Shown here piece by piece: positions 1-63,908 of a stretch of DNA of 64,000 nucleotides. The translations under genes and the position numbers were made by a program. Each line of letters starts with the position of its first letter. Positions within the stretch are counted from its first letter, which is position 1. Below the pieces are notes generated by a model. That model was not told the origin of the DNA, searched no databases, and was given only the letters and a program-made list of their open reading frames with translations. Source of the DNA: Liolophura sinensis (lineage: Eukaryota > Mollusca > Polyplacophora > Chitonida > Chitonidae); assembly GCF_032854445.1 (NCBI RefSeq), contig NC_088299.1, forward strand, positions 13,507,608 through 13,571,607. The letters run 5' to 3'.

Positions 1-20331
<20,331 letters not shown>

Positions 20332-26188: not shown

Positions 26189-29100
26189 ATGGGGCTGTCT
26201 GATGAGGGTGAGGATGCTGTGGAACAGCGCTTTGACGACTTGTGTCTGGCATTAAACATGGACAGACACGCAAAGGAAGAAGCTTGGGAATCTTACCAAA
26301 AGCAGCGCACAAATTATTCTTTAGAGGCAAGTAGACGTAAAATGGGCAGCCATTTTACTTTCCTGATTTGAAGTTGAACCCTGCTGAGCGGAGTATACAA
26401 GCTGTTAGTATAGCGGGACTTCATGTCCACTTATGGCCAGTAGGGGGTCTGCTTTGTCTCAGAAGTAGTGATGCAGATTAAGGAGAAGTTTACTGTTTTG
26501 TTTTAGGGGGATCAGATCCAGTGGCTGGCGTGTGCGCTTTATGTGGCGTGCCGGCGAACGGTCCTTCCCACTGTAGATGGTGGAGTCACGGAAGGAAATG
26601 GAGTGTCACTCACTCGACTCCTGAGATCGGCGTCATTTAGGTATAAAACACACTTCTAGCGAATGATTCAGTTTTCTGTTTTCATCCTGGATGGAATGGA
26701 TGCACTTTGCACTGATGTTGTTATAAACTGAGAAAATGCAACCATATCATGTCTCGACCTGCTGAAATCCACGAACGTACATTAATGCCTTCTGTTTTAA
26801 AAACCCAGAGGAAATGCAAACCGGGGTTTAAGTGAATTATAAGATAAGCAACAAGCATCTAATGGTTAAGTTGCATCTTTTTGAAAGTTTGTCAGGCAGT
26901 GAGGTGGTTTCCTCCACCCGTAAAATTCACTGCCATTTTACTGAAATGTTTTTGAGCACAGTGTTTTCTGTTAGGTCCTAATGTAATAATAAAGCACCAT
27001 TCACATAAATAAATAACACCATGGAGACAAGCAATCTGAGGTGGTTCAGCGGGTTAGCACGCCAGCACAGCGCAATGACCCAGAAGCCACCCACCAATTT
27101 GATCACTATGAGTCCAGCTCATGCTGGCTTCCTCTTCAGCCGTACATGGAAAAGTATACCAGCAACCTCCAGATGGTCGTTTGTTTCCCCGGGCTCTGCC
27201 TCATTTCCTCCTACCATAATGCTGGCATCCGTCGTACACGTGAAATATTCTTGAGTACGGGGTAAAACACAAATCAAATAAATAAATATGTAAAACCAGC
27301 AATCGGGTACTCTGTCACTGAAAACTGGCTTAGTTAAGTTGATATATATTCACAATCACATCATGTTGTGAATCCGTAATCATTTGTCTAAATACATCTG
27401 GTGAGTTTCCTCCTGGCTCTGTCCTGTTTCCTCCCACTATAATGCTATCCACCATGTGTAGCAAAATATTCTGGAGTACCAGGAGACACCAGTCACATAA
27501 ACAAATCAAATACATCTGGTAAACGTAGTGGTGGAAGACCCAGGAACTCGGTCTAGAGGAACAGTTATAAGCCATTCTTCGTGAGCATAGCATTCTGTAA
27601 TTATAGGTAAAAACATAAGCCTACACACAGAGAAAAAAACAGTGAACAACCAGAAATTTTCACAGACAAGGTACCGTCGGTGGAGAAATTTAAAAAAAAA
27701 AAGAACGAATTTGGATAAAGCACGAGAAAATTCACATCTCGCAGGTAAAATATATATTTACACTGTATGAACAAGGCAGTGAGCTAGAACCAACTGGTCA
27801 ACTGGTGCATTTACATTGTTACACTCATCTGTGAATCTTGCTGACATCCAGTCTGCATTTACATTGTTACACTCATCTATGAATCTTGCCGACATCCTGT
27901 CTGCATTTATATTGCTACACTCATCACTCAAACTTGGTCTATGCAATTACATTACCAGTCTGCATTTACATTGTTACACTCATCTGTGAATCTTGCTGAC
28001 ATCCAGTCTGCATTTACATTGTTACACTCATCAATGAATCTTGCCGACATCCTGTCTGCATTTATATTGCTACACTCATCACTCAAACTTGGTCTATGCA
28101 ATTACATTACCAGTCTGCATTTACATTGTTACACTCATCTATGAATCTTGCCGACATCCTGTCTGCATTTATATTGCTACACTCATCACTCAAACTTGGT
28201 CTATGCAATTACATTACCAGTCTGCATTTACATTGTTACACTCATCTATGAATCTTGCCGACATCCTGTCTGCATTTATATTGCTACACTCATCACTCAA
28301 ACTTAGTCTATGCAATTATATTACCAGTCTGCATTTACATTGTTACACTCATCAATGAATCTTGCCGACATCCTGTCTGCATTTATATTGCTACACTCAT
28401 CACTCAAACTTGGTCTATGCAATTACATTACCAGTCTGCATTTACATTGTTACACTCATCTATGAATCTTGCCGACATCCTGTCTGCATTTATATTGCTA
28501 CACTCATCACTCAAACTTGGTCTATGCAATTACATTACCAGTCTGCATTTACATTGTTACACTCATCTATGAATCTTGCCGACATCCTGTCTGCATTTAT
28601 ATTGCTACACTCATCACTCAAACTTAGTCTATGCAATTACATTTGTCGTGAATCTTGCCTGTGCCTTTACATTGTTACATTCATCCCTGAATCTTAGTGA
28701 CATCCAGCCTGTGCATTTACATTGTTGCAGTCATCTGCGAATCTTTCCCACAAGTCAGTCTGTGCATTTACAATGTTACAGCCAGCCGTGAATCTGAGCA
28801 ACAGTCAGCCTGTGCATAAACATTGATATATTCTTAAACTTAGTCTATGCAATTACATTTGTCGTGAATCTTGCCTGTGCCTTTACATTGTTACATTCAT
28901 CCCTGAATCTTAGTGACATCCAGCCTGTGCATTTACATTGTTGCAGTCATCTGCGAATCTTTCCCACAAGTCAGTCTGTGCATTTACAATGTTACAGCCA
29001 GCCGTGAATCTGAGCAACAGTCAGCCTGTGCATAAACATTGATATATTCTTAAACTTAGTCTATGCAATTACATTTGTCGTGAATCTTGCCTGTGCCTTT

Positions 29101-37900: not shown

Positions 37901-40900
37901 AAGACAGTATGTCACAACGGAAACAGATATATTTGAACATTGTTGACGTGCTACAATTCATTTTTGACGTAATAAGGGCTCAACGTCCTTTTACAGGCAT
38001 GAGGATTTCACAGAACCATTTCCCACAAAAATAGGCTTGGCTACTCACTCAATACTGCTTAGTTAACATTGAACAGAGTTAATTGTCCAAAGACTTGAGT
38101 TGTCAGCCTTCGAAAAATGGGCCTTTTTCAGTCATGTGCACAGCGAATCAGGCAATGCTATCTGCCACATTGGACAGGAAGTAGCACAGCCGATGAATTA
38201 CATGTTGGACAGAAAGTGAATCAAGGTCCTTGACCAAAGAGATTTTGGTTTACATGAAATTCTGATTCTGAGATGCGTTTGATTGCAAGGCTGTTGTAGA
38301 AGTGGTATTTAACAGTTGGTGTGTTGTACTCTCCTGGTAGGGGGGACATCAATCCAGCTGACAATGTTTAGAGTACCCCGTTCTCCCTTTTTTTTTTTTT
38401 TTTTTCCATAGTATGATACCGTGATCGTTCAGTGACATTTCATTCATTTTAAACAAAAAGGTTGAGGGAGTATGGTGATTTTTAGTTTACGAAGTAAATG
38501 GAAATTAGACCTACAAGAAACACCAAACACCAAAATTTGTTTGATGAAATACCATTAATACTAGAATTATTACAGGTAAATGGGTTCCCATAGCAGAAAT
38601 GTTGGGAACTGAAAACACATTTCCCAAGTCAAAAGTACATGGAACCGAAAAAATGTTTCCCTACATTTCTGAAATCCTCATGCCTGTTTTAGATTTGAAA
38701 TTTCTCTAGGACATCTCCATGCAGAAGTTTATCTGCATGGCCTTGCCTTGTCCTTAATAACATAATGCACGGTGTCATTTATAAAACTATTTGTAGGACA
38801 AAGAATGGCTTGGATACATTTTGGTATGGAGCCATTGGTTTTGCCAGTTGTGAAGCTGGTGTAAATATATCTGACATTTGTCATAAATCTGTTTTGGCGA
38901 CAATATGTTTTCAGCCTTCAGACGATCACCCGGGCTCTCATGAGGATTTCGCACAGAGGAGACTACAATTGGCTGAGAGTTTGTACTACAAAGTTCTGGA
39001 GAATATCCTTGTCAGCGAAAAGAAACGGCTGCAGGGCAAAGACCCAAAGGCTGTTTTGACGGTAAGCATTGCCTGCCAGATTGTGTTTGTGCTCATATTT
39101 CCGGTGATGTCCAATTGGTGTCAATTCTGTATCACTGTACATGAATAGCATTGACTTCCATATTTACATGCTGCTTGGGGAAGTGAATTGATGATGCTGG
39201 TTGGTTAAGTAAATTGATGATGCTGGTTGGTTAAGTAAATTGATGATGCTGGTTGGTTAAGTAAATTGATGATGCTGCTTGGTTAAGTAAATTGATGATG
39301 CTGCTTGGTTAAGTAAATTGATGATGCTGCTTGGTTAAGTAAATTGATGCAATGTTTGTTCCTTAATACATTAGGACTTTAATATTTGAAAATGTGAAGA
39401 ACAAGGTAGCTGGAGCCTTAAAGGAAAAAAAATCTGAAAATCAACGCTCAATAGACCACTTAAAACTATGCACAAGTATGCTTTAATTTATTTTTTTTTT
39501 TAGATTTTTATGAATTTTGTAAAAAGACTAAAGGCATTCCAAGCATTTGAATTGTAAGGTGGGCTTGATGGACCATACCAACAAACAGAAGATTTTCCTA
39601 ACTCTAATCACGACACTGAATGATGGAATAACTATTTTTACTCATGAGTAAAACATGACTGAAACAATGTTCCCAAAAAGTTCATTCTTATGGTAAACAT
39701 CAGGAAAAAACCGTGATGTGACGTCCCTAGAGTTCCTAGATAACGTCAGTATAGCTCATGAAGTCCACTGTGGTATTTAAATATTGAATGCCTTTCAACA
39801 CTCATTAAAAAATCTGAAAAAATGAAAGACGGTATTTTTACGCATGGTTCTCAGTTGTCTGGGTGATGAACCTTACTTCATATTTTGGCTTTCTTCTACT
39901 TTAACAACCACTCCGGAAAATGCCTAAGCATTCAAACCTGCATGATTAATGGTGGCATGAGCAAAATTCAAGAACACGATTTCTGATTAGCAGATGTTTT
40001 CTGATGGACATCAAAGGTGGGTTCCCGGAGCTATTTTTGTAAGGCTTTTTATCGTGTATTAGTTTTAACGGAGTTCTGCGAAAGTTACTTTCTCTGCAGC
40101 CGACATTTCCTGATGAATTTACATGTATTTTGCCCTACAGGGTTTACTAGAGCAAGACATCTTCCACAGATCTCTGTTTGCCAGTTGTTTAGAGATTGTG
40201 ATATTTTCCTACAACTCGCAAAGGTAATTGTCAGATGATACGAGTCATTGTGAATGAGATGTAACGCTGCTGCTTGGTAAAGAACCATAATGCTGGTCGC
40301 AGTCTTATAAGTGAAATATTCTGGAGTATGGTGTAAAACACCAAATAAATAAATCATGGTAAAGAAAGTGACATTCAGATTTTTGAATAGAAATAAAAAC
40401 ATCTGTTTAAAGCATTTGAGTATTTGAACTCTTGAGGGCTCTGTGCACCATTGATGATGGGTTTTTTTTATCTTTATGTTTACTTTCTTATTAAATTCTT
40501 GTGGATTGCATATATAATATGCCCTAAGAAAAACTACTTCCAATTATTCTGACTGGAATAACATGAATCAGAGCAGAAAACAGAACCTTGTGACATCATA
40601 TATGCTCATCATGCCATAATCAAAACGTCTCATTTATTTAATTGATTGCTGTTCTATGCTGTACTCAAGACTATTTCACTTATACCACAGCAGTGAGCAT
40701 TATGGTGGGAGCAAACCCACGATCTGCAGGTTGGGAGCAGACTTTCCCATGTATGGCCTCAATGTCGCTTGTATAACCAGTCCTGAAGTTCGTATGCATA
40801 GGCATTTACTTCTGGTCAAGGTATTTTTAGATACCCTTTTCAGTGGAATATCTGAATACGTTAACTGCTGCTTTTTGTTGTCTCTTCCTGGAAGTCCAGA

Positions 40901-43900: not shown

Positions 43901-46900
43901 ACCAAAAACAAAATTTTGTGACATTTATTTGCCTCTAAAAATGCACTTTGTGGATGAAAGTGTAGGTCATTTAGGGTATAGAAAGAACAATAGATACCAA
44001 GAACTGGTCGCAAATACCCAATAAGTATAGAAAAAAATTTGCAACTAAGCATCATTTTTGTGTGGTCTTCTCTATTAAGTTTGTTATTCTCTGGATGCTC
44101 TAGCATATGCAGTTCCCAGGATACTTTGGAGTTTGGGGCTATTCATAGATTACAGGGTGGAGAGGGTGAGGTTAACACAGCTTCATGTTATGCTCTGAAA
44201 GAGAGACTTGATGACCCATATACCTTCACAATGATTTAAAGTGTTGAAGTCTCTTCCAAAGTTGCCGTTAAATTTACAGAAACATTGAGGAACTGGGTTT
44301 TTTGTGTGGACACTTAACTTTCCAACACTGACCAATGTAATCCAATCTGCTTGCTCTACCTGCAGACCCGCTGACCTCCCCTACAGGCCCCTCAGCCGCT
44401 GATCGCTTCAGCTCCCCAACCCCAGGTAGTGCTAAACGGCGTCTGTTTGACAGCACCACAGCTGGGGAGACTCGCACAACGACCACCATCCCTGCAGCAG
44501 CCGTCTCCCTACTCCGTGATAAAGTCCCTCATACCAGTGAGGCGGGTCAGAAGAGTCCACTAACAGCAACAGGGATTATAGCTTTCCAGAGGGCTCAAAC
44601 AGAGGATGGACAACAGGTGCGCCAGTTACCTCCCTTAGATCATTGATCATTTGTTGGTAATGTATAGTTTCACTAAATCAGCAAATTTAAAGGGTTGGGA
44701 TGTATCATTGGACTATGCCAAGTGAATTTGAAGGGTTGTTGTCCTGTAGAAAATGGCATGCTGAAGAATATATAATTTCTCCAATGTTTCATTTCTAGGT
44801 GCTAATCAAACTCCCTATAGCAAATACCTGCACACTGGTCTCAACAACTCAGCTGTCCTCCAAAAACAGCACCCCAAGTAAAGCAGTGCCTAATAAACCC
44901 AAGCGCACAGGCTCCCTGGCATTGTTCTTTAGGAAGGTGAGAGGACTTAATTCTAATGTTTAATTTCGTCAATTCCAGTTTTTAGTTTGACCAAGAATAT
45001 TTTTCATGGTCAGTCTAGGCTTTGATGCATGTATTGAACACTTTATGATTAGCCACTTGGAAAATGCATATTAAAAAATTGTGGTAGTTTCTTTCTGCCG
45101 GAAATAAAAGCTTTTAAAGTTCAAATATATTAGAGTTTATAATTCTGTTGGCCGCGCTTTTGTGTTGTTTGTTTTACCTCTGTCATGACAGAATCATGTA
45201 TTTGTATTTCATTGTTTTTTGGGAAGAGTTCTTTTTTGACAGTTTTTGAACAAAGAATAAAACCTTACCTCAGACATTGTCGGCTGCTTTTTATCATTAA
45301 ATATATGGTCGTGTGTCTTTGTCAGGTGTATCACTTGGCAAGTGTGCGTCTGCGTGAGCTCTGTGACAAGTTAGAGGTTACAGACGATCTGCGGAGGAAA
45401 ATGTGGACGTGTTTTGAGCAGTCGATGGTCCAGAATGTTGAGCTGATGATGGACCGACATATTGATCAGCTCATCATGTGCGCTGTCTACGTCATGGCAA
45501 GGGTAAGTGTCTGCACTCAAAATAGTCTTCAAAATAACATATTACAGAAGATAGTTCAGGATACATCAGTTGTGAATTTGCTCAGAGGCTGCTTTTTCTA
45601 TGGGAGTGTGTTTGATTTCACAATAGGCTGTTCCAGTTATTAAGGATTCTATGAATTCTGTGATTCTAAAAGAAAATTAATTTTTGCCAAACTTATGTCC
45701 TTGAGAATGGTTTAGATAAATAAAGACATTGAAATGCTGCAGGTGGACAACCAGCCTCAGTCATTCCAGGATATCATGCGGTGTTACAGACTACAACCTC
45801 AGGCAGGGAGTCATGTAAGTATACAGTCTACTGTCATGATAGCCTTTTGTTACAAGGGACCAGCATTTATTACTTTAGCACCAGCTGCCTTAAATCCTCA
45901 GCTAATTTGACCACCTACATTGTTCCTTTTGAGTACATTTAGAAGACTGTTGCTCTACTGGGGCAAATTATTTTAGGATTTTTGTGAAGACTTAAATGCC
46001 CCTTTTTAATCATTTTTGATTTTAATCTGTAGTGTGTTTTTATACGTCTACAATTTTCATCTCTGTCTGGACTTCACTGGTCATGTTTGTTGAGGATGTA
46101 GGGTAGCTTCAATTTTCTTGCCTCAAGCAATTCTAGATAAATGCACTGTGAGCTTACAATTGGGAAGCAGGTTTCCGTCCACATGACTAATATGTGACTA
46201 ATATGTGACTCAAAAGCCTTAGACGTTTGCTCATTCACACGGAGACTGTTTACATCTTATGTAGAAGAATGAAACCAGTTACCCACAACTTGTACAGGCT
46301 GAAAGTGCTCTCAACTTAGAGAATTATGAAATAACTTGATTTCAACTCATGCAAAATGTAAAGAACACATTTTTTTTCATTGCACAGCTATGTTGGGTGC
46401 AGTGATTTTTGTCAATCAATTGAATCTATTTCAGTCTATGTGGCCCATGTTAAAACAGTCAAATTATACGAAAGTGAAGAGTATTTTTGGGTAGTGCATG
46501 ATTACTTCAGGATTTTACAGTACCCTCCACTCACATCACTAAGGGTGCTAGAAGCCCACCGGGCATGTTGAGAATATGTCTACAACCTGACACCCCTCTG
46601 ACATTCATGCTGATGTTTCAGGTGTACCGCAGTGTTCTACTCAGCACGCGTCGGCGCCGCACCTCTGGCAGTAGTGACAACAGCAGTAAGAATGGAGCCA
46701 GCGGTTCCTCCTCCCCTGTTAACCTGGCAGAGGAAATCAAGGACAAAGACAAGAGTAAGTTTTGATTGAAATAGCCCAAACTTTTTCACAGGTGGAGCTC
46801 TTTCTCTAATTTACTTCTTTTCAATAACATCTAGGAGTTGTATTTCAAGGTAGAATAGAATATTTTAAGTTCTATTTCTTTGTTCCCTTCATGATATTTT

Positions 46901-49900: not shown

Positions 49901-52229
49901 ACTCAACAAAGTCAACTTGCACGTAATTTCTTATCAGAAAAGGTCTACCAGAAACCTGTGGACGGCAGTGGGTTTCCCTTGGTTTCCTCCCACCATAATG
50001 GTGTCCATTGTCTAAGTGAAATATTCTTGACGGTGTAAAACACCAATCAAATAAATACGTAGAAAAGTTTAAGAAAATCTTACCTTCATGAGCCCATCTA
50101 GCAGTTTCACGTGACCTGTTACATGTGGTGCATCTCAATGACCAAATGTGGATAAACTCTCTTAACTGGGTGCAAGGACACATAGCTCAACACAACTCGA
50201 GACCACTGAATGCTTCTGGCCGCAGAAAAGTAGAACATGTTCGACTCTGAGCAACTGTCGAATCAGCTTGAGTAGATGGACTTCAACCAGCACTAGATCA
50301 AATGCTCTCTTCAGCTCCAACTCGCTAAAAATCCAGTTGACCCCAGTTTTCAGGTCTATCTACACCCTTGTATTTGATATAGTAATTTGCCCCAAAAAGA
50401 ACATTTTTGGAGGCAAATAAAAGTCCTAAAATATTTTTGCACTTTAAGTGACAATTGTCCAGTAGTATATATCCATACCTTCTGAAGAAACTCATGACAC
50501 CTTTCCTTGCACAGAGGGATCGTAAGTCTAAGTTGGTTGTAAATCGTAAGTCAAAGTTGACTGTAAATCACCAAGATCACTAACATAGTCCTATAAACTT
50601 ACAGCCGATACCCTTTGGGATGAAGGGATTGTAAGCTATGACAGTCGTAATTTGTAATTAAAAATTAGGTTGAACGTGTTGGAAATATTTACAGTCGTCC
50701 CAAAGTTAATGTGAAGTACAAATACTTGGTGCAGGTAGACATTTTGTTAGTAACTTTCGACTTGGTTTGTAAAGATGTGCAATTTGATGGTCTCAGTAAG
50801 ATGTTATGAGAATTTTTTCAAACGTTGTTTGCTGCTGAACCATTATGATGTTGAAATTTTTCGAAAATGAAGGCAAGAAAAAGTTAGTGACATATACATT
50901 TTCCATTTAAGAAGAGCTCATTGGGTACATTGAGTCAAATTTGGTATACGATAGCGCTCGTAACTCCAAAATGTTACCGTCACCTTACAATCCATTGTAA
51001 CCGTAGTTGTACATGGCAAACCAGTAGAATTGAGTAAAAATGAGTACCTTGAGTTGTGGAGGAAATTACAGGTTGTTAAGAGTAATCTGGTTATTCTATG
51101 TAAGAACACTTCTTTGTAAAATTGGTCTTTGTTCTTACCAAGTTCGTCATAAAACCTGATCAATTCGGATTTCAGGATTGTCCCCCTTTGTCACCTCTAC
51201 CAATGCCCAGATCTCAGCCATCATCCCCTCGCCGAGTTTCAACCAACCACAGTGTGTATATATGTCCACATAAGACCGGCTCTGCACCGACTACCCCTTC
51301 TAAAGGGATGTCTTACCAATTCAGCAGGAGTCCTGCTAAGGTTAGGTTTGAAGTGAAGCTATAGTTCTGGTATTTATGGCTCTACTTACAGCTGTTTAGT
51401 TTTTATGCCCAATAACAGGTAAAGCAGTGCTCCAGTAAATGTTGGGTACGGTACCTTAAACACTAGTTCATGTATTGAGCTCATGTTTTGCATACATGTA
51501 GAGAGCAGATAATATGAGGAGGGTGTTTCATTGTTGTACATATTAAATACCGTAAATTACAAAATTTCATGTATTGTGTATTACCATTAATGGCAAAAGA
51601 AATGTTGGGGATGGTATCGCAAAAGGTATGACATACATGTAAAGCACAGTGACACCAGAGGGATGTTCCATCATTAATGAGCTGTGTGCATATAAATCAC
51701 TTAAAATTATCAAATGCACAATTACTTGGATGTATTGAGTTGAGGTTTTGCATTTATGTGTCGCCTACAGACAAGCTCTTTGATAGCCTTACTACCAACT
51801 CTAAGTTATACATTTTTGAGGTAACTGTCTAGAATTATGCGCCTTCAAACTGGGTAAAGAAAGGGGTCGTCATCATGATGGAGTGGTTAAGATGTCTATC
51901 TTTAAATTTCTAGAACACCCCAGGTACTGGTTCAATCCCAACCTCAGGCAATGAATACATCATGGAAGGAAGCATAACCTCAAGTTTTGGTGTTTTTTTT
52001 TTTTTGATAACTATACGGTTTTGTTTTTTTTCTCACTTTTCAGGACCTCCGTGCTATTAACAACATGATCAAGATGGGCGAGCGGCGCATCACGGTCAAG
52101 CGGTCACTCCAAGTTGACCAGGAGGAGGAAATACTAACCAGTCCGGCTAAAAGGGCGTATCCAGGCTCGCTGGAAAGACGCCTCCAGTCTATCAGCAATG
52201 AAAGGAGAGAGGCCAATGGCAATGTCTAA
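26189..52229 (+). CDS. RBL1: Retinoblastoma-like pocket protein (p107/p130 type), complete, 24 exons
   Basis: Nuclear E2F corepressor and cell-cycle regulator. Exons: 26189-26326, 26507-26640, 29861-30061, 30823-30887, 32242-32367, 33003-33163, 34280-34344, 34754-34931, 36941-37107, 37675-37756, 38915-39061, 40141-40223, 41087-41207, 42480-42578, 43225-43351, 44366-44616, 44799-44936, 45326-45502, 45743-45814, 46622-46754, 47478-47626, 49198-49257, 51176-51340, 52044-52229. They join into 1,074 residues, very close to human p107. Similarity runs over the full length: DDLVNSYHLLLCCVDWIFAN, NVGDFDERIFLG, HFYKVIEVLIRAEEGLSRD, KRTGSLALFFRKVYHLASVR, SPAKxLRAINNMI. Two introns (after exons 1 and 13) use GC-AG. 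The start is the ATG at 26189; an in-frame upstream open stretch has no ATG. p107 and p130 split in vertebrates, so the symbol denotes the RBL family. Confidence 0.96.
27034..27291 (+). mobile_element. SINE family 1, near full-length copy
   Basis: In RBL intron 2. It carries the tRNA-like head (gtggttcagcgggttagc), the core (ataatgctggcatccgtcgt) and the tail (tgaaatattcttgagtacgg, aaacacaaatcaaataaata). A short repeat agcaatc occurs at both sides, a possible target duplication. Confidence 0.8.
27390..27505 (+). mobile_element. SINE family 1, decayed fragment
   Basis: Core and tail words are recognisable but diverged (gtttcctcccactataatgc, aaaatattctggagtacc). It lies just downstream of the better-preserved copy. 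Confidence 0.6.
27805..28640 (+). repeat. 107-bp tandem array in RBL intron 2
   Basis: The word cagtctgcatttacattgtt recurs at 28111, 28218, 28325, 28432 and 28539, exactly 107 bp apart. Each unit contains two or three related sub-units (ctgcatttacattgttacac, ctgcatttatattgctacac). The left end contains a variant with an additional sub-unit. Units are nearly identical, so the array is recent or homogenised. Confidence 0.93.
28621..29381 (+). repeat. 216-bp tandem array in RBL intron 2
   Basis: The word aacttagtctatgcaattac recurs at 28621, 28837, 29053 and 29269, exactly 216 bp apart, giving about 3.5 units. It shares sub-unit words (gtgcatttacattgttgcag, gaatctt, tctatgcaattacat) with the adjacent 107-bp array, so it is a diverged, roughly doubled version. 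The right end is interrupted by a SINE. Confidence 0.93.
29390..29718 (+). mobile_element. SINE family 2, inserted into a satellite array
   Basis: A tRNA-like head (tagcacagttggtagagcg) is followed by a body shared with the copy at 48091 (agaggaag, gaagcagcactagataaaa, gtcctgcaacaaggaggcac, gactgaaaaattgt-like). The 8-bp sequence cattcatc occurs at 29382-29389 and 29719-29726. The satellite sequence resumes directly after it. Confidence 0.8.
33917..34121 (+). mobile_element. MITE-like element, family 1, copy c
   Basis: The third copy of the family, 205 bp, in the RBL intron before exon 7. It begins TA-CTTTAATTCATCACC and ends GGTTGAAGAATTACAG-TA, an imperfect TIR pair, and shares the internal acaaaactacattggttgg word with the others. 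Confidence 0.65.
34881..36760 (+). repeat. 116-bp tandem array containing an exon end and its splice donor
   Basis: The word ctggctgtcaagatgcagga starts at 34881 inside RBL exon 8 and recurs every 116 bp (34997, 35113, 35229 and so on) to 36737, which is exactly 16 periods with no length variation. Each unit holds about 51 bp of exon-8 coding sequence ending GTCAGTCAG, the donor GTGAGG, and about 60 bp of intron. Units differ at only a few recurrent positions (aagcggt/aagcagt, ccaaga/tccaga, gggtatc/ttggtgtc). Confidence 0.97.
36941..42578 (+). CDS. RBL1: RBL exons 9-14: pocket domain A
   Basis: Residues 357-589. Starts with the linker segment APSTPLTGRRYLKGKD and TPVSTATQSVSRLQALLSGR, which matches p107 (APSTPLTGRRYLR, ATQSVSRLQ). 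It then runs through FAQRRLQLAESLYYKVLENI, LLEQDIFHRSLFASCLEIVI, FPWIVDIFDMAPYHFYKVIE and IEECILESLAWRSDSPLWDA. Pocket A together with B forms the E2F- and LxCxE-binding surface. The exon-13 donor is AT|GCAAGT (GC at 41208), and using it gives exactly the p107-like junction LN(H)-IEE; no GT donor nearby keeps the frame. Confidence 0.94.
39181..39350 (+). repeat. 26-bp tandem array in an RBL intron
   Basis: About six copies of gtaaattgatgatgctggtt plus ggttaa, 120 bp downstream of exon 11. The later units change ctggttggtt to ctgcttggtt. No coding role. Confidence 0.9.
39510..39915 (-). repeat. Dispersed ~400-bp repeat, copy 2
   Basis: The minus-strand counterpart of the repeat at 6010-6400, lying in an RBL intron. 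The order of shared words is preserved over the whole length, so the unit is a mobile-element relic and not chance similarity. Confidence 0.65.
40283..40356 (+). mobile_element. SINE family 1, 3' end fragment
   Basis: Contains ccataatgctggtcgcagtc, gtgaaatattctggagtatg and the aaaacaccaaataaataaat tail. Short 5'-truncated copy in an RBL intron. Confidence 0.75.
40628..40760 (-). mobile_element. SINE family 1, reverse-oriented copy
   Basis: Reads as the reverse complement of the family core and 3' unit: tttcacttatacc, gagcattatggtgggagc and acccacgatctgcaggttgg. This is the only clear minus-strand copy that I see in the window. Confidence 0.7.
42606..42846 (+). mobile_element. SINE family 1, near full-length copy
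   Basis: Starts with a tRNA-like head (ggccttcatggcctggtggt), continues with gtccggtcctaagtaggagg and the core, and ends in gtgaaatattcttgagtact and an A/T-rich tail. It lies just after RBL exon 14. Confidence 0.8.
43225..44616 (+). CDS. RBL1: RBL exons 15-16: A/B spacer with cyclin-binding RxL motif
   Basis: Residues 590 to about 715. The spacer is Ser/Thr/Pro-rich with several SP/TP sites (for example DPLTSPTGP, FSSPTPGSAK). It contains KRRLF at residues 655-659, within GSAKRRLFDS; human p107 has the same AKRRLF motif, which binds cyclin A/E-CDK2. The long spacer is what distinguishes p107/p130 from pRB, so this supports assignment to the RBL group. Confidence 0.93.
43765..43978 (-). mobile_element. 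MITE-like element, family 2, intact copy with perfect TIRs
   Basis: 214 bp in an RBL intron, bounded by TA on both sides. The ends are perfect 14-base inverted repeats including the TA: TACCCTAAATGACC at the left and GGTCATTTAGGGTA at the right. The interior is the reverse complement of copies a and b. This is the clearest copy and defines the family as a non-autonomous TIR transposon with presumed TA target duplication. Confidence 0.8.
44799..52229 (+). CDS. RBL1: RBL exons 17-24: pocket domain B and C-terminus
   Basis: Residues 716-1074. Pocket B begins at about KRTGSLALFFRKVYHLASVR, then LCDKLEVTDDLRRKMWTCFE, DRHIDQLIMCAVYVMAR, EERGDLITFYNQVYVEKMRM. A p107-like B-domain insertion rich in Ser/Arg is encoded by exons 20-21. 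The C-terminus has PPLSPLPMPR, SPRRVSTNHSVYICPHKTGS and DLRAINNMIKMGE, matching the conserved p107 tail. Stop TAA at 52227-52229. Confidence 0.94.
47210..47282 (-). mobile_element. Family 3 tail, reverse orientation
   Basis: Reads gaatgaatgattatggctta, acgccacattggcaatattt and cagccatattgtggcg, the reverse complement of the family-3 tail. Located in an RBL intron. Confidence 0.6.
48091..48425 (+). mobile_element. SINE family 2, second copy
   Basis: A tRNA-like head (gatgactcggtagagcatcc) and a body matching the copy at 29390 (cacctaagac, aagcagcactagataaaaag, tcctgcaacaaggaggcaca, atgactgaaaaattgtgaca). It follows an A-rich run at 48066-48083. Confidence 0.8.
49450..49596 (+). mobile_element. 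SINE family 1, 5'-truncated copy
   Basis: Begins within the core (gtaagtgggaagctctgcca) and continues to tgaaatattcttgagtatgg and a (AAAT)n tail. Located in the RBL intron after exon 22. Confidence 0.78.
49940..50060 (+). mobile_element. SINE family 1, 5'-truncated copy
   Basis: Core and tail words (tggtttcctcccaccataat, gtgaaatattcttgacggtg, aaaacaccaatcaaataaat). The element has lost a short segment of the usual ttgagtacgg word. Confidence 0.75.
50370..50520 (+). mobile_element. MITE-like family 2 fragment
   Basis: A partial copy recognisable from ggaggcaaataaaagtccta and the following words, ending near cacctttc. No clear terminal repeats remain. Confidence 0.45.
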
Positions 52230-56882: not shown

Positions 56883-58268
56883 TTATTTCGGTCTCTGGAG
56901 GTGTAAATCCAGGCACAGTTGTTTACAGTGTGGGTGAACTTGCTTCCAAAATACCTCTATACCCCTCTCCTTCTGATCGAATGGACTCGCCTTCCCGTCT
57001 CCGCTGCTGTTCAGCTGTGGGTCCGTTAGATACAGGACGTCACTTGTGTCGCGCGGCACCCATCCCTGAAGGTCAACTATCATTGTCTGACCTTGAGACA
57101 CGGCATAAGTGAAGTGGGTGAACGCTAGGACCGTTTCCAGCATTTCGGACTTGACTTTGGTATTGACGTAGTCGAAATTATTGGTCAGTTTCACGAATTC
57201 GGAATCCCCTTCTAAATATGGTTCCACGTTGAGGTAGTCCATGATTTGACCACTAGGTGTGAGCACCTGTAAATGAGCAGCAGGTAAATACTGGATTTTG
57301 GCAAATCTGTCGACATTGGGCAATGACTGTAACCTCTGATTGAACAAGGTCACAAAGAAACGTGCAGTCATCTGACTCTTCACGTCCTGAAGGTATTCTT
57401 CAAGAATGGGATTCTCCTTCCTGTACCGCTTTGCCACGTACCTACACAGGATGAAAAATACCACATTTGTGATGATATTATACCGAGACATTTATTAACT
57501 CTTCCATATAAAAGTAACTGCGTAGAACTGTTTGGATTTGGCGCACTCAGAATAATGCTTTTGATTCATTGCCTACATCATATATAAGAAAGAGTCGACG
57601 GCCTTGAGATATACACGCATTTATCGGTTGTCTGTTGATGTGTATAGACTTCGGCAAACGTTTATTGATCAAAACGTAGGCTTTTAAAAGATCGGATGCA
57701 TGTTATGGTGTGCTGTTAATGATATAAACGAGACGGGTTTTATATGATTTTCCGTTGTCAATTTTGACAGTGACTGGGACGCTTTGCCCATTCCGTCTTA
57801 GCCCAACGGGCAGCAACATCATTCCTGAACAAGTCTTTTTGAGATATAACATTTTCCTCTGGTAATGCAACTTGAAGATGGCATTCATGCCGTCAATTCT
57901 AACCGAGGTTGTTTGACATTACATTCCTGTAGAATTTGATTCTGACTACATCATACTAACGGTTTGGTCTCCTCCACCCGAAAAGCTGACGGCTATTGTT
58001 TTTAAAAATTCTTCAGGAGTTCTACGGTACTCTAACCAGCTAAAATATAAATAAATCTATTTATGGCTATTTATTTCTTTATACACCATGCTGGTCAGGG
58101 ATGCGTACCTGCCAAGGGATTCGTCCTGGTGCAAGAACTGAATGTGAATAGTGTCCCGGTGTTTGCCTTTCTTGTGCTTGGGAATGTCAACTAAGGAACC
58201 AATGAACACAAGCGTACTCTGTGGGTTCCACTGCTTCTGTAAGGGGTCGTACTGCCAAAGTAAAGCAC
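56883..58268 (-). CDS. ALPK1: ALPK1 alpha-kinase domain (two exons)
   Basis: Residues 649-886. Lys705 in RYVAKRY aligns with the ATP-binding Lys1067 of human ALPK1. Other conserved parts are QFLHQDESLGR, the acidic VEPY motif (773-776), FVKLTNN, HFTYAV with His810, VDLQGWV with Asp824, LYLTDPQ (837-843), and a Cys-x3-Cys pair (C873, C877) that with upstream His fits the zinc site of alpha-kinases. The segment before RGI is FDQKE, where the human protein has a Gly-containing NFGK; it may alter the loop but not the catalytic lysine. The kinase is predicted active. Confidence 0.92.
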
Positions 58269-61200
58269 CTGCAACCCGAGGAAGTAATCGAAAATCACCT
58301 AGGAACTTCAAATTGTGACATTAAAAGCAGAGCTGAAAAATGTAATACAGATTCTGGTGTTAACCATTCTGCTTAAAGTTTAATGCATCTGTGGAATACC
58401 AATCAAAAGAAAGATACCTATACTGGTACAAAGGCATTACAATTCAAACGTATTGAAATACTGAATAGCCACCAAAACCACAAATGGCGAAGAGATAACT
58501 CTGGCTGTGGCACGACCAGAGAGGTATTCACCAGTATACTTACGAGAAGCGCCCATTTTGTTGACAGCATTCGCATAGTTGTCCTCCACTACTTGTTGAA
58601 CCTGATGGAAGTTGGTGTGCGTGTTGGGCGAAAAGCTGGTCAAGCCACCATGTTGACTATGAGCACTTGCGTTGGGAGGGACATGGTCTCCCCAATCCAC
58701 AAGGGGGCGATACTGAGTAATGGGAGAGAACTCCACTTCATCAGGAACAGTGTATCCGCTTGTGTCGGTTTCACGAGAACTACAGCCCGAGGAATCTGTC
58801 GATGCGGAGGCAGATCCTGAATTTGAGGACAAGGAGAGATCTCCTCTCTGAAGGTCCCTAAGAGCCTCGATGGTGTACGTCGAACAAAGAGTAGTGGCCG
58901 CTGGGTCGACTTTTGCGGACAGGCTGGAGTCCGATGGATCTTGTCTGGTTTCACTGGACTGATGCGCCGCTCTCACAAGATCATGGTCGATACTGGTGTA
59001 CCGTGGACTATGTGGATTAGCTGGCAACCCAACTTCTCTCATCTGTGCCAGCCTCACCAGATTATCATGTGATTTGGATTTATCGTCTTGGCCCAGAATG
59101 AGTTTTGGGATCTCAGGCTCTACAGAAACCTTCACAACATCTGCTGCATTCCCATCGTTGTCTGGATTACTGATATAGAGTTCCTCACCTGTTGTGTTCT
59201 GTAGATTCCCGTGCTGTTTAACCAAATCATGTTTCGGATTCACTCTGAGCTCTTGCAAAGTTTTACTCAATTCATCGCCGCCCGGGCTTCCATTAAGCGT
59301 TGGGAGATTCAAGAACTGCAATGCCATATTACAAAGTCGGACAGCTTCTGGATTTTTACCTAGGCCTTCCGCATTTCGGCAGTAGATGCTGTAGAGAGCG
59401 ATAGACAGTTCCTCCAAGACCCAGGCTAAGCGAGTGTCATGTCCATTGGGAGAGTGCATCAATGCGATACTTGCCAGGTAAAGGGCCTTGAGGAATTCGA
59501 AGCTCTGTTCCCGACTCTGCAATCCCTTGACTGCCTGATGCTGCGCTAGGCTTTCGTTGAGACGCGATAAAGCGGTATCCAAGACTTGGTGTTTCATATG
59601 GAACTGGTTCTGCTGAACAGCGAAACGCAACAAGGATTCACCGGCATCGAGCTGAAGTAAAGACGACAGATTAGAGAGGAACTTGCCAAGACAGTATGAC
59701 GTTTAAGAAGTACAACCTATTTTATATATGAGGTTGCAGTTCGATAATGTCACAACCGTTGTTTGATGCAAAAAAAAAAAAAACTTCAGTCATTCCTCGC
59801 TGGCTCAATAAGCTAAAATGCATGCGCTCGTGTCACCCCCGCTAGTCACTTCCTTAGCCATAATGTCGCACGCTCAAATTCGGCTTAATTTATCTACTTC
59901 GGCGTGGCAAGACGTTAGTTTGGGAACTTACACAGGTAGCAATTTATCCCAGGCAATTCAGAATCCGCTACTACCAACCCTGACCGCCATTACACGAGAA
60001 ATCCTTGGGTGAAGCCAAGCGAATGGTTTTATCAAATTAATAACATAAGTTACGAAACCAATTTTTGGGGAAAACAGTGAATGATTCAACTTTTTGTCTC
60101 TTCCTAACCAAACCTTCTCTGTCTTGCATACTCACCCAGTGTCTAGCCGTGAAGAGGTTCTGTGGGGGGCAGAGCTGAGCTGCGCTAACAGCCTTGCTGT
60201 ACGCTTCCTGGCAAGGGTGGGGCTGTACAAGCCCCGGATACCTCCTCCTCAGCTCCTCGTACTCCTTCATACTCAGCTGTTTCAAGCATTTGCCGAGGAT
60301 TCCCAGCGACGAGGAAATCCCTTTGTCATCTTTAACGGGTAAGCTTTCAAATCCCGTTATTGACTGCACGAGGAGATGGATAGCCTCAGGCCATAAACCT
60401 ATAATAAAAGACAGGCTTATATTATATAAAGCAATGAAAACAACAAAAACAGAACTTCTTGTGGACGGCCACACTGTCACATACAGACCAACAAAGAACC
60501 CCGACATTGTATATTATGTAACAAAGAACACAATTCCCGTTACATGCAGCCAGAAAAAGAACCCAGTCCATGTCACATGCAGCCAGAGAAAGAACCCAGT
60601 TCCTGTTACGTACAAAGAAAGAACCCTGTCTCTCTTAAATACTGTCAAAATAAGAACTCAGTGACTGTTGCATACACTCAAAGACAGAACTCGGTCACTG
60701 CTACATACATTCAAGGGTTCTGCCCTGTTTCCTCCCACCATAATGCTGGCCACCGTCGAATAAGTGAAATATTTTGAGTACGGCGTAAAACACCAATCAA
60801 ATAAACAAATAAATAAACATACAAAGAAAGAACCCAGTTACTGTTACATACAGCCAAAGAAAGAACCCAGTCCCTGTCACATACAGTCAAAGAAAGAACC
60901 CCGCCATTTTGGCATACAGCCAAAGAAAGAACCTCTTCACTCCTACATACAAAGAAAGAACCCAGTCCAGGTCACGTACAATCAAGGGGAAAACCCAATC
61001 CCTGTTAAATTCAACAAAAGAAAAAAAAACAATTTCCAGCAAAGAACCCATTCCCTGTTCTGTACCGTCGAATGATAAAAGAACGTGCGTGATAATCATA
61101 CCACCTCGATTTCAATCCCATCCACTATACATTCTAGGCGTATAAACATACATACGCAACGATGCTATTTTCCAAATAAAAATAATCTAATTATGGAGGC

Positions 61201-63908
61201 TAACCTACACTTTTTTCCTTCTTTTTTTTTTCTTTTTTCTAGCAGCCCTTATATAGAGTAGTCAGATTTAAGGCTAATTTTGTCACACAACTCACACGAC
61301 AGTCCCAGCTGTTCACTACATACGGGTTTAACAAATGTAATTACTGGGACGGAAAAACAGCCTATAAAGAGTCCGGGATTTGTACACATTCATTGTAATA
61401 CCCATAGTCTTCAGACAGAGGTCACGTGATCAGTCACTCATGAGCCGGTAAGTTTGTATGTTGTGTCGTCGTCAGAGTACATAATACCTTCCGGATTCGC
61501 GTTTTTGATATTTCGCAGAAATCTGGCTGACCTATATGAAACATTGAAAGCAAAAATAGTTTCAATACATACCCAAATTATGTAGAATTTGTCCTTCAAT
61601 TTGAACGCAGACAGCTACCACGTTGTCATGCTGAGCTTTTGACTTGTACTGCCACGAACCAGGGGCTGTTTGCAAAATGATACTTTTATTATAGTTGGTA
61701 AAAATTGTAGTGAAATCATAGCACGCAAACTGAAGCAAATTCCACAAACACCAAATTGCGTGTACCATAAGTTATGTTAACGGATAAAATAACCTCAAAA
61801 ATTCAACTAGATCAAATATTCGAAGTGTAAGCATATGCGAGACAAATTCATTCTAATTGAGTACTTTAACTCCTCAACCTTTTTGCATATGAAAGAGCTA
61901 CTTTAAATTCAATTTATCTGCATTTTTTATCTGATTTTTGGAGACATTTTGAAATTACATTGGTTTGATTGGCCCATATTAGAGCTTCATAAAAAGTATA
62001 ATTTTATCCGTTACACAGAATAGTGCCTTCAGAATAGGCTTGCAGAATATGGTTGGCTAATCACCTTGTAAACATGCGAAAAGGTGCGAAGAATTACAGT
62101 AATGAATATTACATGTACAATTCCAAATGAAGATATTTTGAATCATGTGTTAAATAACCCATCAATAAATCAAGCAACCAAGGTAGGAGAATATGTTCGC
62201 TATGGTGACTACATATTACATATCTCAGCTTTTTAAATTTCAGATATATATGTCACTATTTTCAGACGATGTTTCACGTAATATTGTAAAAATGTCTTCT
62301 TTTTGTCTTTTCCTCCTTTTTTCTTGGTGGTATGTTAAGTCGTTGATATTCTGATTCTTTGACACATGTACATCAATGGAGGTGGAGATATTAAAAGGAT
62401 TAACCACGCACAGTTTTTCATCGTTATTTAACACAAAACTCCTAAATATCATTTATATATTGGTGGTCAGTAAACCGCAGTTCCCGAGGAAAACCACTGA
62501 CCTCTGGTAAGTTATTGCAAACTTTCTCAAGCAGATATGGATAGGCACGTTGTCCACCGTGTATTGTCACCATGGTCCAACAAACGATGCATGGCAGGCG
62601 AGGAATCTACAAATACCCTGCCCAAGGCCAAGGTTGAACCCGCACATCGTGTTTCATATAGATCCAAAGGCAAGCTTCTTTAAACATTTTATATTAGGGG
62701 ATATAATTTATACATATTCCATGATACATTCAGCAATGTTTCTTAACGAAGTGGGCATCTCAGCCAAAATAAATATCGTGGTATTTAAAAACTCTTCTCC
62801 CAAAAAATCTTTGTGTGGAAATTTCATTGCTGTTACCTGGACTGTTCCAGTCCGATGCCACAATGGCGTGAAGGACTCTGACAGCTCCATGCAAATCCCC
62901 GGAGTCCTTCAGAACGCGAGCCTTCCGAATGAGCATCTGAGGGGCGATCGCTGGGCATTGGTCACAAGCTGCCAATACAGACACGACGTTCAGGATTACC
63001 TTGGCGCCCCCATACCAGTACATGAATCGGTCCAAAACAAAGGCCACTGCAGAGGCCAAGGAGAATTTTTCGTTTTCTAATGCCAACAGAAGACTTTTCT
63101 GAAATTCATAGAAATGTTAATTGTAAATGTGCAGTATACAATGGGAGAAAATTTGGAATGAATTAATTTACTCAAAAACTTACTCAGCTTACCATATAGC
63201 TTAATTATATTATTGCATTTTATCACCGATTGGATGAACAACTTGACTCATCGAGTAAGACAATAGTAACTCGTCGGTTACGTTAATTATTCACTCACTT
63301 GGTCTGTTGAAGGGCTTGTTTGTCTGGTCAAAAAATCCTCTAAACTGGTCAAAAGGCTCACTCAAATTGTCAAAAGACTCACTCATCAAATCAAAATTAA
63401 CCATATTCATGTCCATATTAACCATATTTTGTTCTAGAATTTAATCTCACTGCTTCCTCCTACCATAATGCTGGCCGCCGTAGTATAAGTAAAATATTCT
63501 TTAGTACGGCGTAAAACACCAATCAAATAAATAAGTAAATAAATACGAAAGTAAGGAAAGTAAGCTAACACTATCGACATGTAAAGTAACTTAAACTGAC
63601 TAAATTGGAAATATATCAAATAAAAAGCAAGACTACATAGTCAGTCATTGATAAGTTTTAAATAAAATTGTTATATATCCCTTAACTTACCAAGAGAATT
63701 AAGTTCTGGGAGACCGATGGATGACTATCATTACGAGAGGTAAGCCAATCAGGTTTAATGTCGGGAGGTAAGAATGGCCAGTCCTGCTGTATGGCCGACT
63801 TCACCAACGTCTGTAATCTTCTTGGCAAGGTCGTCAACCATTTCCCGGCATTTCCTGCTTCTTCCCAATCCTGAGGCCCCGGTTCATCGTCAATGCGCAA
63901 CAAGAATT
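56883..63908 (-). CDS. ALPK1: Alpha-protein kinase 1 (ALPK1) homologue, 5'-partial, last 7 exons
   Basis: In vertebrates ALPK1 is a cytosolic receptor-kinase: its N-terminal domain binds bacterial ADP-heptose and its alpha-kinase domain then phosphorylates TIFA to activate NF-kB. Exons in transcription order: 63908-63691, 63098-62837, 61665-61573, 60398-60136, 59651-58544, 58268-58109, 57441-56883, all GT-AG, with phases joining into 886 residues and stop TAA at 56885-56883. Similarity to human ALPK1 covers both ends: WPF, FVLDRF, APQMLIRKAR, CVQIEGQIL, DDKGISSSLGILG in the sensor; GRYVAKRY, NVEPYLEGDSEFVKLTNN, VDLQGWV and LYLTDPQ in the kinase. The middle linker is much shorter than the human one. 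The right-most exon starts after an acceptor (63909-63910) in the middle of a codon, so at least one more 5' exon lies outside the window. Confidence 0.94.
58544..59651 (-). CDS. ALPK1: ALPK1 large central exon: end of helical domain and linker
   Basis: A 1,108-bp exon, residues 279-647. The first third (LRFAVQQNQFHMKHQVLDTA, FLKALYLASIALMHSPNGHD, AVRLCNMALQFLNL) still looks helical and matches the end of the N-terminal domain. The remainder is Ser/Asp/Gly-rich and low in hydrophobic residues (SLSSNSGSASASTDSSGCSS), a disordered linker to the kinase. Human ALPK1 has several hundred more residues here, so the linker is compact in this species. Confidence 0.9.
60136..63908 (-). CDS. ALPK1: ALPK1 N-terminal sensor region (four exons)
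   Basis: Residues 1-278 of the partial protein, an all-helical TPR-like region. By alignment to human ALPK1 from memory, the ADP-heptose-contacting residues correspond as follows: F61 to F45, R116 to R96, R150 and R153 to R130 and R133, D231 to D214, K233 to K216, F295 to F273, all identical. Q67 corresponds to K51 and is changed. The alignment needs no gap between F45 and K51 and keeps a constant offset of 20 over R96-R133, so the correspondence there is firm. The conserved context is IAPQMLIRKAR for the two arginines and KDDKG for the acid-lysine pair. Confidence 0.9.
60535..61065 (+). repeat. Degenerate ~31-33-bp minisatellite in an ALPK1 intron
   Basis: Repeated words of the type cagccaaagaaagaacccag and tcctgttacatacagcc recur roughly every 30-33 bp, with many substitutions and gaps. 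A SINE-1 copy interrupts it at 60715-60818. It creates artificial open frames on both strands with a KEPSPCHMQP-like repeat, but it lies in an intron (left of exon 61573-61665) and has no support as coding. Confidence 0.85.
60715..60818 (+). mobile_element. SINE family 1, 5'-truncated copy inside a minisatellite
   Basis: Core and tail (gtttcctcccaccataatgc, ttgagtacggcgtaaaacac) interrupt the ~31-33-bp degenerate tandem array in an ALPK1 intron. The array continues on both sides, so insertion came after the array formed. Confidence 0.8.
61862..62101 (+). mobile_element. MITE-like element, family 1, copy d
   Basis: The longest copy (240 bp), in an ALPK1 intron. It begins TA-CTTTAACTCCTCAACC and ends GGTGCGAAGAATTACAG-TA. 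The terminal inverted repeats pair over roughly 25 bases with mismatches (TTTTTGCAT against ATGCGAAAA). No coding capacity. Confidence 0.65.
63450..63545 (+). mobile_element. SINE family 1, 5'-truncated copy
   Basis: Contains ccataatgctggccgccgta, taagtaaaatattctttagt and the aaaacaccaatcaaataaat tail. Lies in the ALPK1 intron between the two right-most exons of the window. Confidence 0.78.

Follow-up and report, generated by a model that had tools for sequence, protein, structure and literature searches.

A 64,000-nucleotide stretch of chiton DNA, called the window below (G000:C5:13507608-13571607), was found to carry a real gene that, judged by its domain content, is ALPK1. What is new is a genuine chiton ALPK1, with most of its ligand pocket kept, where print says there is none. 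The best reading by analogy is a mollusc kinase activated by NDP-heptose, so that heptose sensing would predate vertebrates.

The host genome comprises 609,464,459 bases in 632 contigs; the assembly is given in print as 632 scaffolds and 609,495,693 bases (PMC11068029), and the name first published for it, Liolophura japonica, was later corrected to L. sinensis (PMC12441733). The host is a Liolophura chiton and hence a mollusc and a protostome, in agreement with the sequence-only reading, which had supposed an invertebrate. On a 108,685-base contig (C99, L024-L027), COX1 occurs seven times at a spacing of about 15.5 kb; the contig is a concatemer of the mitochondrial genome, of which a further copy lies on C632. 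Genes were assigned to the mitochondrial frames by eye. One strand has the order COX3-ND3-ND2-COX1-COX2-ATP6 and the other has ND1-ND6-CYTB and ND4L-ND4-ND5, an arrangement that we take to be consistent with that of molluscs.

Gene model and family assignment

Seven minus-strand exons with GT-AG borders joined in frame to encode 886 residues and a stop, the frame being open across 7/7 exons. Window positions are as follows.

63691..63908 (-): exon A, residues 1-72, with F45 (human F61); supported by splice borders, frame and ALPK1 match
62837..63098 (-): exon B, residues 73-159, with R96, R130 and R133 (human R116, R150 and R153)
61573..61665 (-): 93-nt exon, residues 160-190; supported by splice model and ALPK1 match
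60136..60398 (-): exon C, residues 191-278, with D214, K216, S220, Y237, S262 and F273 (human D231, K233, T237, Y254, S277 in 5/9 alignment schemes, and F288 or F295)
58544..59651 (-): exon D, residues 279-647, last part of the N-terminal domain plus the linker
58109..58268 (-): exon E, residues 648-700, start of the kinase domain
56883..57441 (-): exon F, residues 701-886 plus stop codon; carries K705 (human K1067) in the alpha-kinase domain

This model reproduced to the residue the length and numbering of the 886-residue protein read earlier from the letters, and F45, R96, R130, R133, D214, K216, F273 and K705 were found exactly where that reading had put them. The interval it had assigned, 60136-63908, covers the N-terminal exons, but the gene continues to 56883. 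Residue 1 of the model is not a start, and the splice acceptor that precedes exon A indicates a further exon upstream; among 28 candidate pieces in the 28 kb upstream, no start-codon exon was convincing. An alternative acceptor for exon D, 30 nt upstream (window 59681) and adding 10 residues, was set aside because, by eye, it looked weaker than the chosen acceptor. The gene sits in a 19,479,325-base scaffold and is present in a single copy, as 5/5 matches of the N-terminal domain genome-wide were exons of this gene.

When the spliced N-terminal part (414 residues) was searched against the PDB, only ALPK1 chains were matched up to E 10, with a best E of 5.3e-34. BLASTP aligned this domain to ALPK1 with 78/221 identical residues (E 8e-37), and the alignment score of 331 compared with at most 55 in 200 shuffles of the chiton domain. 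The kinase exon also matched ALPK1 best in the PDB (E 1.5e-29, against 1.2e-9 for the next-best other kinase); this comparison was made without ALPK2 and ALPK3, so that it is chiefly the N-terminal domain that justifies naming the gene ALPK1. Residues 681-877 matched Pfam Alpha_kinase at E 1.3e-35. These results bear out the earlier identification of an ALPK1 homologue. They also bear out its claim that the kinase lysine is kept, since K705 aligned with the RYVGK lysine of the ALPK1 kinase domain; in human ALPK1 this lysine is K1067 and is required for activity (PMC10113258, PMC11614533).

Human ALPK1 (PDB 5z2c, 8zd3, 9j4p) likewise combines a helical N-terminal ligand domain with a C-terminal alpha-kinase. 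It is 1244 residues long, and the chiton protein is shorter at 886 residues in a model that lacks the first exon. MHCK A, TRPM7, eEF2K and two other alpha-kinase loci of this genome, on C9 and C1, share the alpha-kinase domain with chiton ALPK1; in contrast, the kinase match of other alpha-kinases was far weaker (best 1.2e-9) and their PDB chains are without the ALPK1 N-terminal domain. The C9 locus (C9:28013688-28014302, minus strand; G000, L001) holds its entire kinase domain in one 365-codon frame. No relatives of the N-terminal domain were detected in the viral and genome contig collections searched.

Two further observations concern the window itself. A dispersed element with the core ACGGCGTAAAACACCAATCAAAT had six matches with two or fewer mismatches, at 60780-60802, 63506-63528, 5485-5507, 9155-9177, 27257-27279 and 50030-50052 (all on the plus strand), and none in 100 shuffles. 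Two of the six copies fall within ALPK1 introns, and no mention of the element was found in the literature searched. Exons of the retinoblastoma family were detected at 38699-39145 and 45143-45640 (plus strand; Pfam RB_A 2.3e-10, RB_B 1.2e-25).

Register and conservation of the ligand pocket

The sequence-only reading had listed seven ADP-heptose contacts of human ALPK1 and held all seven to be identical in this protein. We take F61, R116, D231 and F295 of that list to be such contacts. As for the remainder, R150 (PMC11614533) and both R153 and K233 (PMC10723048) are reported to be needed in the human protein. The register was examined in nine global alignments of chiton and human ALPK1 (three matrices by three gap settings); the human 1-456 sequence used is identical to 8zd3_A. 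F61, R116, R150, R153, D231 and K233 were paired with F45, R96, R130, R133, D214 and K216 in 9/9 schemes. The seventh pair did not hold. F273 was aligned with F288 in 5/9 schemes, with F295 in 1/9 and with neither in 3/9, and the phmmer and MAFFT alignments likewise paired it with F288. The equation of F273 with F295 was therefore rejected; in its favor, by eye alone, the 12 positions from F to the LL pair align gap-free. Aligning the 886-residue protein with human ALPK1 thus left six of the seven residues in register, with F295 out in 8/9 schemes.

The list was also incomplete, as it left out T237, a gatekeeper that forms a bond with the sugar in the crystal structure (PMC11614533, section 3.5). 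In the chiton this position was Ser220 in 9/9 schemes. Two other human residues had counterparts, Y254 in the identical Y237 (9/9) and S277 in a serine, S262 (5/9). Compared with human ALPK1, the chiton protein is therefore identical at 6/7 of the listed pocket residues, at Y254 and at the kinase lysine, but has Ser at the T237 position and no clear counterpart of F295.

Over human residues 38-288, 84 of 240 aligned residues were identical (35%). Against this background, the hypergeometric probability was 0.0016 for 6/6 identical pocket residues (F295 left out), 0.008 for 6/7 (T237 included) and 0.023 for 6/8 (F295 counted as missed); for the paper-backed contacts R150, R153, K233 and T237, of which 3/4 were kept, it was 0.12 and not significant. 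A control on residue type, post hoc in that it was noticed after the alignment, showed that only 4/27 aligned human arginines and lysines in this region were kept, namely R116, R150, R153 and K233, all of which are on the pocket list. By type, 3/8 arginines (116, 150, 153) and 1/19 lysines (233) survived. The same four were kept under four alignment settings, one of which aligned 10 Arg and 18 Lys. If four of 27 residues survive at random, the probability of obtaining exactly this set is 1 in 17,550, or 24 in 17,550 when only R150, R153 and K233 are counted as known contacts.

Proposed sensing mechanism and its evolutionary meaning

We consider it likely that this single-copy ALPK1 orthologue is a sensor whose N-terminal domain would most likely bind bacterial NDP-heptose and free the kinase, with an adaptor passing the signal to TRAF and Rel proteins. 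The proposal starts from what is observed, namely a gene with both domains, six pocket residues and a kinase lysine that align in register, and the TRAF and Rel domains of the genome (TRAF MATH domains at five places; seven matches to Rel domain exons in two regions). The ligand, activation, substrate and immune role of the chiton protein we infer by analogy with the activation scheme of human ALPK1 (PMC10113258). Bacterial NDP-heptose would be held by the helical N-terminal domain through the kept F/R/R/R/D/K pocket, and its seating in the concave face would release the hold on the C-terminal alpha-kinase. The K705-dependent kinase may then phosphorylate an adaptor that would feed TRAF and Rel (NF-kB) signalling.

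Whether such a ligand would be foreign to the animal was addressed by profile searches of the genome for heptose synthesis. SIS_2 gave no match at E 1. The two rfaE domains gave none past the cut-off, each leaving one stretch below it (domain I, E 0.0012; domain II, 27 positions, E 0.043, in a frame resembling a cytidylyltransferase by eye). As no heptose-synthesis domain passed the cut-off, the ligand may be non-self in this chiton; genome matches come exon by exon, however, so that these results do not prove the absence of heptose synthesis. Mollusca are named among the heptose makers in PMC11573728, and heptose may therefore be self in some molluscs.

An unlikely alternative is that the protein is a true ALPK1 whose pocket fits a different nucleotide sugar or metabolite, with the conserved arginines and lysine holding the diphosphate rather than the heptose. 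The gatekeeper position, Ser in 9/9 schemes, agrees with this, as loss of T237 opens human ALPK1 to UDP-mannose, ADP-ribose and GDP-mannose (PMC11614533, section 3.5), and so does the uncertain counterpart of F295. On the other hand, serine retains the hydroxyl, Y254 is kept in 9/9 schemes and S277 in 5/9, and D231 and F61, which we take to be contacts, are kept as well. Quite improbable is an ALPK1 orthologue that has lost ligand sensing and acts as a kinase in some other setting, such as cilia or the cytoskeleton. The genome searches yielded no clear TIFA partner and identity over human 38-288 is just 35%, as such a role would allow; yet the arginines and lysine that survive are precisely those of the pocket, and the kinase lysine and domain are intact. 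That vertebrate DNA entered the assembly by contamination or recent horizontal transfer is extremely unlikely; nothing was found in its favor, and against it stand a seven-exon gene within a 19,479,325-base scaffold, 35% identity to human over 38-288, and two introns carrying the dispersed element present six times in the window.

The gene bears on published statements about the age of this pathway. ALPK1 and TIFA are stated to be vertebrate-only in PMC12457700, their homologues are said to be limited to vertebrates in PMC11573728, and ALPK1-3 are described as three vertebrate kinases in PMC13143021. According to PMC11573728 and PMC11461863, the receptor arose in vertebrates once heptose synthesis had disappeared from deuterostomes, and certain protostomes, including molluscs, make heptoses. 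No invertebrate ALPK1 was found in print among the titles and abstract openings listed by searches of open-access literature. A two-domain ALPK1 in a mollusc is evidence that the receptor predates vertebrates, and a protostome ALPK1 with a largely kept pocket contradicts the vertebrate-only distribution, thereby taking away the assumption on which that account is built. The origin of the sensor would be moved back at least to the ancestor of protostomes and deuterostomes. The earlier suggestion that heptose sensing is older than vertebrates thus gained a mollusc ALPK1 with both domains, but lost part of its pocket evidence, as F295 was out of register in 8/9 schemes and T237 is Ser. Proteins of other invertebrates carry automatic annotations of the kind 'alpha-protein kinase 1-like'; if these hold, the gene is present in databases but has gone unnoticed in the literature examined.

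A candidate TIFA beside ALPK1

A TIFA homologue, for which a genome search had been suggested earlier, was not clearly found by protein or FHA search. Human TIFA and a non-PDB TIFAB sequence each gave 0 matches in the whole genome. Pfam FHA gave 22, and no TIFA-like frame was recognized by eye at 18 of these loci (the four weakest left out; at 13 of the 18 the four longest ORFs per locus were inspected). Pfam FHA recognizes human TIFA with 30.4 bits, so that a close and unsplit TIFA should have been detected; one that is split or diverged could have escaped.

Upstream of ALPK1, the closest long ORF is on the opposite strand, head-to-head with the gene, outside the window and about 3 kb above exon A. 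It and an overlapping ORF are located as follows.

C5:13574473-13575771 = L006:3074-4372 (+): candidate TIFA ORF, 433 codons, ATG at L006:3083
L006:4318-4926 (+): second ORF, overlapping the end of the first in another frame

The candidate ORF contains a 39-nt tandem repeat of 11.8 copies (13-residue units) ahead of a domain with many beta-strand-like stretches by eye. This domain is single copy in the genome, barring one chance-level match at E 8. MAFFT placed T14, S43, R51, H57, S66, R67, F85, S91, V98, L103, F119, G131, S133, E135 and S171 in common among TIFA, TIFAB and the ORF. R51, S66 and S91 are thus identical in all three, and N89 is shared by TIFA and the ORF; in contrast, G50 and K88 of TIFA are Ala and Met in the ORF, and the 13-residue repeats distinguish the ORF from both TIFA and TIFAB.

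The strength of this resemblance depended on the query. The score of the domain was reached by 9/3000 shuffles with a TIFA+TIFAB profile, 1/3000 with the non-PDB TIFAB and 239/3000 with TIFA (PDB letters: 40/3000 with the profile, 218/3000 with the 8wwy TIFAB chain), and that of the whole ORF by 4, 5 and 241 of 3000, respectively (PDB letters: 21/3000 and 426/3000); Smith-Waterman shuffles of the domain gave 1/1000 with TIFAB and 87/1000 with TIFA, and all these figures flatter the ORF because it and the domain borders were picked by eye. Among 120 ORFs, the candidate ranked 1 with the profile, 1 by Z with the non-PDB TIFAB and 2 with phmmer TIFAB, but 6 with the profile and 42 with the 8wwy TIFAB chain in PDB letters, and it was absent from the best 12 of 120 with the TIFA query. 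The hhalign P values were 0.057 and 0.086. The ORF had no Pfam FHA match up to E 10, and a PDB search gave no TIFA; its matches at E 0.05 were confined to plant receptor kinase chains. It contained no TRAF6-binding motif of the form PxExx(acidic/aromatic); PVENSE in the second ORF matches this motif, which 585/5000 shuffles also contained. From its sequence, the ORF resembles TIFA weakly and in a query-dependent manner, and we regard it as a rather doubtful candidate.

Human TIFA and ALPK1 are presumably arranged divergently. A human 4q25 gene list reads AP1AR, TIFA, ALPK1 and NEUROG2 (PMC9935865), in which TIFA adjoins ALPK1, as the candidate ORF adjoins chiton ALPK1. It is conceivable, though we hold it only tentatively, that the chiton has the full ALPK1-TIFA circuit as a head-to-head pair like that of human 4q25, with a repeat-bearing adaptor, and that the bilaterian ancestor had both genes side by side. 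Threonine was found ahead of the domain in 8/11 repeat units starting DS(L/I/M)A, and in ADT just before it. In such an adaptor some twelve 13-residue repeats would precede an FHA-like domain, and since most of them have a threonine followed by acidic residues (APTKED), a single kinase could phosphorylate the adaptor at many threonines and so give rise to a multivalent TIFA polymer.

Above the candidate ORF, on C5, lies an intronless 636-codon frame (L028:3514-5421, minus strand) that matched Pfam Glyco_transf_61 at 1e-12 and looks POMGNT2-like by eye. Among the FHA loci, near-identical stretches were observed at C39:63846-64040 (L019) and C1:85986435-85986629 (L018), a small contig and a chromosome, and this pair is probably a leftover haplotype copy.
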